A stretch of DNA of 64,000 nt. Origin: an uncultured Synechococcales cyanobacterium. GTDB lineage: Bacteria; Cyanobacteriota; Cyanobacteriia; Thermosynechococcales; Thermosynechococcaceae. Position 1 is the stretch's first letter; each line of letters starts with the position of its first letter. Below are positions 46,986-50,977 of this stretch, one piece after another. A program made the position numbers and the translations under genes. The notes under the pieces were generated by a model. It worked only from the letters and a program-made list of their open reading frames with translations, searched no databases and was not told where the DNA came from. Location of the stretch: contig CADCWO010000194.1 of the NCBI GenBank assembly GCA_902806435.1, forward strand, positions 1-64,000, written 5' to 3'.

Positions 46986-48377
46986 TCAACAGCGGGCGAT
47001 TCCTGCATGTCGCGCTGCCTGTTGCACCGCACCCGCCACCGCAGTCACCACTCGCGGATCAAATACAGAAGGAACGATCTGCTCCCGGTCTAGGTCGCTA
47101 GAACTAATTAAGGCAGCGATCGCAGCAGCTGCTTCTAAGTGCATTGATGTTGTAATTGCTGCGGCTCGACAGTCCAAGGCACCGCGAAAAATTCCCGGAA
47201 ACGCCAGTACATTGTTAATTTGATTGGGGTAATCACTGCGGCCCGTTGCCATGACTGCTACCTTGTCTTGCACCAGTTCCGGTTGGATTTCCGGAATTGG
47301 GTTTGCCATCGCAAACACAATTGGGTCAGAGGCCATCGTGTATACCATCTCTGGGGTTAAGACGCCGGGGGCACTTACCCCCAAAAATACATCAGCCCCT
47401 TGCAGGGCATCTGCTAAGGAGCCAGATTGGGGTTGAGCAAATTCTCGTTTGGCAGCACTCAGGTCTGGACGCTGATCCGAGAGAATTCCCTGGGAGTCGC
47501 ACATCCAAATTTTCTCCACGCCCGATTTACGCAACAGCCGGGCGATCGCGACTCCCGCCGCACCCGCCCCGTTGATCACAACCCGCACCTGAGACAAAGA
47601 CTTTTTAACCAGTTTCAAGGCATTAATCAAAGCAGCCAGGACGACAATCGCTGTCCCATGCTGGTCATCGTGAAAGATGGGAATCTCCAATTCCCGCTGT
47701 AGCTGGGCTTCAATCTCAAAACAGCGGGGGGCACTGATATCTTCGAGGTTCACCCCTCCAAACACTGGCGCAATATTCTTTACGGCTGCCACGATTGCTG
47801 CTGTGTCTTGAGTAGCTAGGCAAAGTGGAAAAGCATCAATCCCAGCGAACTCCCGAAATAGCATCGCTTTACCTTCCATTACCGGCAAGGCAGCCGCAGG
47901 ACCAAGGTTACCCAACCCCAAGACAGCACTACCATCAGTAACGATCGCGACGGTGTTGCTTTTAATCGTTAGCTGATAAACTTTTTCCGGTTGAGCAGCG
48001 ATTGCTTGGCAGATCCGGCCAACGCCTGGAGTATAGGCCATTGCCAGATCCGCTTGCCGTTTCAGCGGATGCTTACTCTGAACCGTGATTTTGCCTCCTT
48101 GGTGCAGTGCCAAAGTGCGATCACAAACCTCTAGAACGTCTACGGCTGACAGGGCTTTGACCGCTTCCACAATCTGCGTCGCGTGCTCCTGACTAGCAGC
48201 ATCCACACTGATGTTGCGAACAGACAGCTTCCGGGTTTGGGTCAGTAGCTCAATTTCACCTAGGTTGCCACCGCTGGTTGCGATCGCTTGCGCGATACTC
48301 GCTAGCATTCCAGGCTGGTTGGGGGTTTGGAGCCGAATGGTTACGCTAAAACTGGGGTTGGGCGTCAGGTTGGCCAT
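46986..48377 (-). CDS. NAD(P)-dependent malic enzyme with N-terminal ACT domain
   Basis: Malic enzyme decarboxylates malate to pyruvate. Residues about 9-85 form an ACT-like regulatory domain (VTIRLQTPNQPGMLASIAQAIATSGGNLGEIEL). The catalytic part has LAMAYTPGVGRICQAIA, VAIVTDGSAVLGLGNLGPAAALPVMEGKAMLF, PIFHDDQHGTAIVVLAALINALK and VVINGAGAAGVAIARLL (cofactor site). 463 residues is normal for bacterial malic enzymes with an ACT domain. It lies 13 bases upstream of the phosphoesterase gene on the same strand. Confidence 0.92.
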   Translation of the reverse strand: MANLTPNPSFSVTIRLQTPNQPGMLASIAQAIATSGGNLGEIELLTQTRKLSVRNISVDAASQEHATQIVEAVKALSAVDVLEVCDRTLALHQGGKITVQSKHPLKRQADLAMAYTPGVGRICQAIAAQPEKVYQLTIKSNTVAIVTDGSAVLGLGNLGPAAALPVMEGKAMLFREFAGIDAFPLCLATQDTAAIVAAVKNIAPVFGGVNLEDISAPRCFEIEAQLQRELEIPIFHDDQHGTAIVVLAALINALKLVKKSLSQVRVVINGAGAAGVAIARLLRKSGVEKIWMCDSQGILSDQRPDLSAAKREFAQPQSGSLADALQGADVFLGVSAPGVLTPEMVYTMASDPIVFAMANPIPEIQPELVQDKVAVMATGRSDYPNQINNVLAFPGIFRGALDCRAAAITTSMHLEAAAAIAALISSSDLDREQIVPSVFDPRVVTAVAGAVQQAARHAGIARC

Positions 48378-48538: not shown

Positions 48539-50977
48539 ATGAGCAGCAAAATTAGAATTCATGAGCTGTCTGGAAAATTAAATGTACGCAGTCAGGAAAT
48601 TTTAGCAATCTGTGCCCGGTTAAATATTCCGGCCAAAAGTCATAGCAGTACCATTACTGCGGCTGAAGCTGACCGTATCCTAGCTGCTGCTCAAGCGTCT
48701 ACTGCCGCTGGTTCTAACAGTACTAAACCCCATAGCGAGGGTAGCCTGAACTCAGCAGCCCATCGTACCGCTCAAACGACACCGCTAGAACAGGAATCTT
48801 CTCAATCTCAGCGATCAATTGAGGCCGTCTCTGGTGACATTCATCTAGATGACCCGCAGTATTTTTTCAACCGAGAGCTGAGTTGGCTAGAGTTTAACAA
48901 GCGGGTATTACACGAAGCATTTGACCCGCGCACTCCTTTACTGGAGCGTTTAAAGTTTCTGGCCATCTTCTGCACCAATTTGGACGAATATTTCATGGTG
49001 CGGGTTGCCGTCCTTAAGCAGCAAGTTGTCGCCCAGGTAAGCCAGAAAACCCTTGATGGCTTAACACCCCAAGAGCAACTCGCTGCGATTCGAGAACAGC
49101 TTCAGCCCGTTTTTACAAGTGCTCACCGCCACTTTGAACATCAACTGCGATCGCAACTGGTTGCTGAGGGAATTTATATTCTCAATTACGACGAACTCAA
49201 CCAAAAGCAGCGTCACTTCCTGCATGAATATTTTGAAGAACAAATTTTTCCGGTACTGACTCCACTAGCCGTTGACCCCGGTCACCCCTTTCCTTACATC
49301 TCAAACTTGAGCCTCAACCTAGCGGTAATAGTCAGAGATATGGAGACCGGTGAAGATCACTTTGCTCGGCTAAAAGTACCCAAGGTGTTGCCTCGCTTTA
49401 TTACCCTGCCGGAGGAACTCCATGCCAGCAAAACAGACCAGCCGTGGCACTGGGCCGGCGTCCCATTAGAACAGGTGATTGCCCATAACTTAGAAGCTTT
49501 ATTTCCGGGGATGACCATTCAGGAATACTCTCCCTTCCGCATTACTCGCAACGCTGACTTAGAAATTGAAGAATACGAAGCCGACGATTTATTGTTAGCC
49601 ATTGAGCAAGAACTGCGCAAGCGCCGGTTTGGTTCTACAGTCCGGATGGAAATTCAGGTTGAAATGTCTGAGACCATCCGGCAGACGTTGATGCGAGAAC
49701 TAGATTTGGAGGAAAGTGATGTCTATGAAGTCGAAGGGTTACTTGGCCTTAACGACCTGATGGGAATGATGGAGTTGTCTTTGCCGGAACTGAAAGAGCC
49801 TGACTGGTCTCCTGTTATCCCACCGCGAATTCAAAGGCTGGAGCAAACCGAGATCACTGCTTCAACTCTGGATGGCCATAGCGAGGAGCGGGAGGATATT
49901 TTCTCAACGATTCGCAAAGGTGATTTACTCGTTCATCATCCTTACGAGTCTTTTACGGGAACCGTGCAGCGTTTTATTACCTACGCAGCTGAAGACCCCC
50001 ACGTTCTAACGCTTAAAATGACGCTCTACCGTACTTCTGGAGACTCACCGATTGTCAATGCCTTAATAGCCGCTGCTGAGAATGGCAAGCAAGTGGTTGC
50101 TTTAGTTGAATTAAAAGCCCGCTTTGATGAAGAAAATAACATTTTATGGGCGCGGAAGCTGGAAAAGGCTGGGGTTCATGTGGTTTACGGGATGGTTGGC
50201 CTCAAGACTCATACCAAAGTTGCTCTGGTCGTTCGGCAAGAGTCAGGCCAGATTCGACGGTATTTTCATATTGGAACAGGGAACTACAATTCAAAAACTG
50301 CCCGCATCTACACAGATCTGGGGCTGTTGAGTTGCCGGGAAGAGCTAGGGGCTGATCTGACAGATTTGTTCAATTATCTGACAGGTTACTCTCGCCAAGA
50401 GTCTTACCGGAAGCTTTTAGTAGCACCCGTCAATTGCCGCGATCGCATGATGGCATTGATTCAGCGGGAGATCGAACACCAGAAGCAAAGCGGACAAGGC
50501 CAGATCATTGCCAAGATGAATGCATTAGCTGATCCAGATATTATCATTGCCCTTTATCAAGCTTCCCAAGCAGGCGTACAGATTGATCTGGTGATTCGAG
50601 GGATGTGTTGCCTTCGCCCTGGCATCAAAGGCGTGAGTCAGAATATTCGTGTAATCAGTGTGATTGGGCGCTTTTTAGAGCATTCACGCATATTCTATTT
50701 TCATAACCAAGGCCAGGCGGAAGTATTGATTGGTAGTGCAGACTGGCGACCCCGTAACTTGGACCGGCGAGTGGAAGCAGTTGTGCCAGTGGAAGATCCG
50801 GAGATTGCGCTTCATTTAAAGAAAATCTTAGATGTCATGCTAGCTGATAACCGACAAGCTTGGGAGTTACAGCCTGATGGCACCTACGTGCAGCGCCAGC
50901 CGGTGGATAATCAGTCAGAACAAGGCAGTCAGACACATCTAATGAAACTAACCCTACAATCCGTAGGTACACTTTAG
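48539..50977 (+). CDS. ppk: polyphosphate kinase 1 with an N-terminal IF2_N-like domain
   Basis: Ppk1 makes polyphosphate from ATP. The kinase proper begins near residue 103 (DDPQYFFNRELSWLEFNKRVLHEAFD) and is complete, with FCTNLDEYFMVRVA, the region around HTKVALVVRQESGQIRRYFHIGTGNYNSKTARIYTDLG (active-site histidines) and IRGMCCLRPGIKGVS. Before it, residues 1-50 (MSSKIRIHELSGKLNVRSQE and ILAICARLNIPAKSHSSTIT) strongly resemble the IF2_N domain of initiation factor IF-2. A Ser/Thr/Gln-rich linker joins the two. The ATG at 48539 starts the extra domain; a TTG 13 codons upstream is unlikely. The total is 812 residues. Confidence 0.94.
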   Translation: MSSKIRIHELSGKLNVRSQEILAICARLNIPAKSHSSTITAAEADRILAAAQASTAAGSNSTKPHSEGSLNSAAHRTAQTTPLEQESSQSQRSIEAVSGDIHLDDPQYFFNRELSWLEFNKRVLHEAFDPRTPLLERLKFLAIFCTNLDEYFMVRVAVLKQQVVAQVSQKTLDGLTPQEQLAAIREQLQPVFTSAHRHFEHQLRSQLVAEGIYILNYDELNQKQRHFLHEYFEEQIFPVLTPLAVDPGHPFPYISNLSLNLAVIVRDMETGEDHFARLKVPKVLPRFITLPEELHASKTDQPWHWAGVPLEQVIAHNLEALFPGMTIQEYSPFRITRNADLEIEEYEADDLLLAIEQELRKRRFGSTVRMEIQVEMSETIRQTLMRELDLEESDVYEVEGLLGLNDLMGMMELSLPELKEPDWSPVIPPRIQRLEQTEITASTLDGHSEEREDIFSTIRKGDLLVHHPYESFTGTVQRFITYAAEDPHVLTLKMTLYRTSGDSPIVNALIAAAENGKQVVALVELKARFDEENNILWARKLEKAGVHVVYGMVGLKTHTKVALVVRQESGQIRRYFHIGTGNYNSKTARIYTDLGLLSCREELGADLTDLFNYLTGYSRQESYRKLLVAPVNCRDRMMALIQREIEHQKQSGQGQIIAKMNALADPDIIIALYQASQAGVQIDLVIRGMCCLRPGIKGVSQNIRVISVIGRFLEHSRIFYFHNQGQAEVLIGSADWRPRNLDRRVEAVVPVEDPEIALHLKKILDVMLADNRQAWELQPDGTYVQRQPVDNQSEQGSQTHLMKLTLQSVGTL

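Follow-up and report, generated by a model that had tools for sequence, protein, structure and literature searches.

Does the polyphosphate kinase encoded in the window (the whole stretch of 64,000 nucleotides that was analysed) carry a domain of translation initiation factor 2 (IF2) at its N-terminus, and if so, where did this domain come from and what might it do there? The preliminary description had assigned the first 50 or so residues of the Ppk1 product to an IF2_N module of the cyanobacterial IF-2 type, followed by a Ser/Gln-rich linker and an entire Ppk1, and both assignments were borne out. The ppk1 gene occupies positions 48539..50977 of the forward strand and encodes 812 amino acids when translated from its ATG to the stop codon. 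The HMM search that had been proposed placed an N1-like IF2_N domain (PF04760) at residues 3-50 (48545..48688, forward strand), with E=3.1e-10 and 40 bits in the full 812-aa protein and with E=6.1e-12 and 45.6 bits when residues 1-64 were searched alone, the Pfam gathering score being 25.3 bits. The domain is followed by a Ser/Thr/Gln-rich linker, residues 54-104 (48698..48850, forward strand), which is predicted to be unstructured, and the originally claimed span of 48539-48850 thus comprises the IF2_N domain and the linker. All four Ppk1 domains follow on the same strand with 136-253 bits each, namely PP_kinase_N (PF13089, residues 109-214, 48863..49180, 136 bits), the PP_kinase middle domain (PF02503, residues 223-409, 49205..49765, 230 bits), PP_kinase_C_1 (PF17941, residues 453-619, 49895..50395, 253 bits) and PP_kinase_C (PF13090, residues 626-798, 50414..50932, 238 bits). 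His558 in PP_kinase_C_1 and His715 in PP_kinase_C line up with the two catalytic histidines of the E. coli enzyme (1xdo), and we take them to be the counterparts of E. coli His435, the phospho-histidine, and His592, respectively. His558 is also near-invariant in our Ppk1 alignment (A1), and the catalytic core is intact. A Pfam scan of the protein detected neither the G domain nor the tRNA-binding domain of IF-2, and the window protein is not an IF-2. According to a whole-genome profile search, the genome from which the window comes holds three IF2_N domains, one on ppk1 and a pair within a single 1022-aa frame, infB.

The fusion, which had been read from one open frame, also withstood a check of the translation start. 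Codons 2-125 of the window ppk1 contain no in-frame ATG, GTG or TTG, and CTG occurs there at codons 10, 70 and 114 only. A downstream start, including one near residue 100, is therefore rejected for ATG, GTG and TTG, and the IF2_N domain is obligatory on every Ppk1 made from this gene. Upstream of ppk1 lies a divergent open reading frame (46986..48377, reverse strand), which we assign by reading to the malic-enzyme family. The same neighbour adjoins the fused ppk1 of a related genome, G003 (tblastn, 79% identity in L011), but it is common to G003 only; the Acaryochloris loci show no shared neighbour, and a conserved operon partner of the fused ppk1 was not found. No RNA element was found near the window ppk1.

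The structure prediction that had been suggested gave the same picture of the head. The AlphaFold2 model of the head built from 14 fused sequences has a mean pLDDT of 88, and its best match among solved structures in a Foldseek search was Thermus IF2 1-363, with a TM of 0.81, an rmsd of 1.3 Å and a probability of 1.00; the E-value of 0.02 for this match reflects the short query. A chance match to IF2_N is rejected by the bit score, the fold and the conservation of the domain. The next neighbours of the head in fold, with a TM of about 0.74, were two DNA-binding winged-helix domains, those of pSK1 Par and RacA. In the full-length model, the head is predicted with confidence and residues 57-98 are disordered, with pLDDT values of 25-41 over residues 61-100. 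The mean pLDDT of this model is 66.6, and its Ppk1 part is only fair owing to a shallow alignment, so that the model is too weak to judge packing between head and core.

We then consider how widespread the fusion is among cyanobacteria. The order of the window genome is represented by 29 genomes of one family, and the IF2_N-Ppk1 fusion is present in 14 of them, from seven genera (g1, g3, g4, g6, g8, g9 and g11): the window genome, G002, G003, G005, G007, G008, G012, G013, G015, G017, G019, G021, G023 and G025, several of which are Acaryochloris or Acaryochloridaceae. Pfam detects IF2_N in all 14 fused proteins at E <= 0.01, and in each of them the start Met lies a few residues ahead of a V/I-R-I/V-Y/H motif. 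The head is absent from genus g5, which we take to be Thermosynechococcus, and from G001, G006 and G009, and no Ppk1 match was obtained in G010. In the metagenome-assembled G025, the fused ppk1 is split into two frames near residue 240 (L050:2995-3714 onward), which points either to a genuine pseudogene or to a fault in the assembly. When the class was surveyed with a profile built from the fused heads (390 genomes, 43 families and 160 genera, on the basis of per-genome match counts), no IF2_N on ppk1 was found outside the one family. Among the matches listed (to about 5e-21), those outside the fused ppk1 genes were mostly frames of infB size, and where a genome outside the picocyanobacteria gave two or more matches, inspection assigned the extra ones to infB or other proteins, never to ppk1. 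The survey of cyanobacterial spread that had been called for thus gave a divided answer: the fusion is kept in related genomes, but it is not general, being limited to one family among 43. The idea that it is common to cyanobacteria was rejected, and the longer ppk1 frames of Thermosynechococcus result from stop-to-stop reading of upstream sequence and not from IF2_N. A plasmid-borne fusion was rejected as well, as none of the 91 matching plasmid records reached 80% query coverage and the 30 matches listed start at residue 70 or later. As far as cyanobacteria were surveyed, the fusion is confined to one cyanobacterial order, and an IF2_N-bearing polyphosphate kinase was not found described in the literature.

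A domain that had been placed on ppk1 by accident could persist without a role. According to this explanation, recombination put the 5' end of infB, with its promoter and start site, before ppk1, and the functionless domain was carried along. It gains some weight from the observation that, in other cyanobacteria, two or more unrelated proteins also carry an infB N1-like head, so that the infB 5' end seems to have been captured repeatedly. The codon comparison of the fused genes speaks against it. The dN/dS values were 0.05-0.30 for the IF2_N domain, in pairs with measurable dS, and 0.03-0.05 for the Ppk1 core; since synonymous sites are near saturation, single ratios are rough. The contrast between pS (0.50-0.78) and pN (0.08-0.32) in the domain was nevertheless consistent between pairs, while pN of the linker was high in all pairs (0.30-0.57) and the linker differs in length between fused proteins. 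These values indicate that the head is under purifying selection between genera and that the linker is near-neutral and free to drift, and the selection acting on its coding frame shows that the module is translated. In addition, the 400 bases upstream of ppk1 show no similarity to those upstream of infB in the window genome and in G003, and synonymous sites between the ppk1 head and infB N1 are near or at saturation, so that the domain has outlived neutral decay. On the same two grounds, a recent promoter capture from infB was rejected. Based on these observations, the passive origin is already disfavoured and seems very improbable to us, and we are nearly certain that the fusion is genuine and has a function.

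As to its source, sequence comparison indicates that the head derives from the first IF2_N domain (N1) of infB. Its identity to the IF2 N1 of the same genome is 35/53 in the window genome and 39/54 in G003, and 16-25/53 in the other fused genomes. The window genome also contains a second, plain ppk1 (L078:373-2496, contig C165 of G000), whose product groups with Thermosynechococcus Ppk1. Fused and plain ppk1 coexist in two genomes, the window genome and G003, and Thermosynechococcus has plain Ppk1 only. Trees of the Ppk1 core resolve three groups in the family, consisting of the fused copies of the window genome and G003, the other fused copies, and all plain copies, the last including the plain copies of the window genome (C165) and G003 with support of 99/97; the IF2 tree shows the same three lineages. 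The three groups of the core trees fit an old ppk1 duplication, gain of the head by one copy and later loss of either copy. We propose that, at an early stage of the order to which Acaryochloris and Thermosynechococcus belong, a copy of infB N1 was fused ahead of one of the two ppk1 genes.

The identities given above could also reflect two separate captures, an earlier one in the other genera and a later one in which the window genome and G003 took the domain from their own IF2. The heads of these two genomes are far closer to their own IF2 N1 than those of the others, the domain tree splits them from the other fused heads, and two changes are required on the tree of the Ppk1 core. However, neither the core tree (AU p=0.395) nor the 54-column domain tree (p=0.13) rejects a single origin, and Ser replaces Asn18 of IF2 in 13 of the 14 fused proteins, including that of the window. 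We regard two captures as a tentative possibility; it concerns the origin only and is compatible with a role of the head in targeting.

What the head does was approached from its residues. Asn18 of IF2 is replaced in all 14 fused heads, and Lys33 and His35 of IF2 N1 are gone from most of them. Among the 25 conserved residues of IF2 N1, the window protein keeps 18 and G003 keeps 23, while the other fused copies keep 12-16. In view of this loss outside the window genome and G003, the partner of the head may have changed. The net charge over the 46-residue core is -1 to +4 on Ppk1 and -5 to -1 on IF2, so that the Ppk1-borne heads are, by calculation, less acidic than the IF2-borne copies; as the fused sequences are kin, the difference amounts to few independent events.

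The simplest reading, in our analysis, is a targeting role. We suggest that the head would be a flexible, non-catalytic targeting module, which keeps the core of the IF2 N1 fold in a less acidic form and may direct the making of polyphosphate to ribosomes or to RNA. Ppk1 would most likely be held where IF2 acts, that is, on initiating 30S subunits, or alternatively in RNA-translation bodies where IF2 and polyphosphate meet, and polyphosphate would be made, or ATP regenerated from it, beside the translation machinery under stress. This reading fits reports on IF2 and polyphosphate in E. coli. InfB is named among seven new polyphosphate-binding proteins of E. coli, all linked to translation (PMC12345225), and ppk mutants are described as having disturbed polysomes and more mistranslation (McInerney et al. 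2006, as cited in PMC12345225). All three initiation factors are enriched in Hfq bodies that depend on polyphosphate (PMC13193609). It has also been reported that the N-terminal domain of IF2 helps binding to the 30S subunit (PMC9192638), and that the N1 copy makes IF2 join the 30S preinitiation complex faster, though N1 was not resolved structurally (PMC13345285, preprint).

Several observations weaken the tether to the ribosome. The ribosome contact for which a structure exists, on helix 16 of 16S rRNA, is made by the N2 subdomain of IF2 (PMC9192638), whereas the head is N1-like. In a hand-made correspondence, Asn15-Val16-Arg17 of the window protein match the P. aeruginosa N2 contacts Ser277, Val278 and Lys279, but these residues are not conserved among the fused proteins; a basic residue at position 17 is found in the window protein, G013 and G025 only and is kept neither in the other fused proteins nor in IF2 N1. 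The low retention of IF2 N1 residues in most fused heads, the resemblance of the fold to DNA-binding winged helices, and the fact that Thermosynechococcus manages without a fused form point in the same direction. Taking both sides together, it is quite possible, nearly an even matter, that the head tethers Ppk1 to the ribosome or the translation machinery. The more specific proposal, in which the head carries Ppk1 to 30S subunits at initiation or into bodies of polyphosphate, RNA and initiation factors and so physically couples synthesis to translation initiation, appears rather doubtful.

The fold neighbours and the charge bear on a second explanation, in which the head holds Ppk1 on DNA (the nucleoid), on mRNA or on its own product and determines the site of polyphosphate granules. 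The RacA and pSK1 Par domains that resemble the head are bound to DNA, the less acidic heads would suit a nucleic-acid or polyphosphate partner equally well, and E. coli IF2 itself is listed as binding polyphosphate (PMC12345225). On the other hand, IF2 and not a DNA-binding protein is the best match in both sequence and fold, and the net charge is merely -1 to +4, with Arg6 as the sole conserved basic residue. We consider such a tether unlikely, yet a serious rival to the ribosome tether. Even less probable in our view is a regulatory or assembly module, which would pack on the Ppk1 core or on another protein and alter the oligomer state, activity or stability of the enzyme. A small folded domain on a flexible linker would be suited to this, and protein binding is conceivable because the N-terminal extension of IF2 has been reported to bind NusA (PMC13345285, preprint), but a near-neutral linker of variable length is more in keeping with a tether than with a fixed contact.

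The targeting reading bears on how polyphosphate affects translation and on how polyphosphate kinase is placed in cells. That a domain of an initiation factor has been fused to this kinase, obligatorily and under selection, is natural evidence that translation and polyphosphate synthesis belong together. If the coupling to initiation is true, the head would be a hard-wired form of a connection for which the only evidence in E. coli is the binding of polyphosphate by IF2 and other translation proteins. Since the plain Ppk1 of the same genome can serve as an internal control, a clean head-deletion experiment is possible. The fusion also shows that cyanobacteria reuse the N-terminal domain of IF2 as a portable head, which unrelated proteins carry too, among them a Mokosh-type defence helicase.

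Such heads were observed on frames of 1494-1510 aa in family f32 (L150:773-5254 in G334, L151:584-5113 in G376 and L152:1719-6218 in G136). The L150 and L152 frames, the two that were scanned, match the Mokosh defence helicase MkoA with 340-384 bits in PADLOC, and the frame next to the MkoA-like one in L152 matches MkoB. A 427-aa frame that contains an FGE-sulfatase domain, of the formylglycine-generating enzyme family, likewise bears an IF2_N head (L153:1830-3110, G175), and a 116-aa frame in a 1.7 Mb genome of family f2 is close to a single IF2_N domain with 33.7 bits (L154:859-1206, G029). Like the heads of the MkoA helicase and the FGE-sulfatase protein, the head of the fused Ppk1 is an infB N1-like domain placed before an unrelated protein; unlike it, those heads sit on other partners in other lineages, with no sign of a shared origin. 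Compared with N1 (N/G1) of IF-2 (PF04760; Thermus IF2 4b3x and 4kjz), the window head scores over the cut-off and has the same predicted fold, whereas the fused heads differ in the replaced Asn18, the mostly lost Lys33 and His35 and the less acidic charge. In contrast to IF-2 as a whole, the head sits on another enzyme, and the fused Ppk1 lacks the G domain, the tRNA-binding domain and N2. The plain Ppk1 paralogue of the window genome is without the IF2_N domain and linker. Finally, like E. coli PPK (1xdo/1xdp), the window protein has all four domains and both catalytic histidines in a full-length alignment, but the solved PPK structures align from window residue 108 on, and the window protein differs from them by about 104 extra N-terminal residues, which form the IF2_N domain and its linker.
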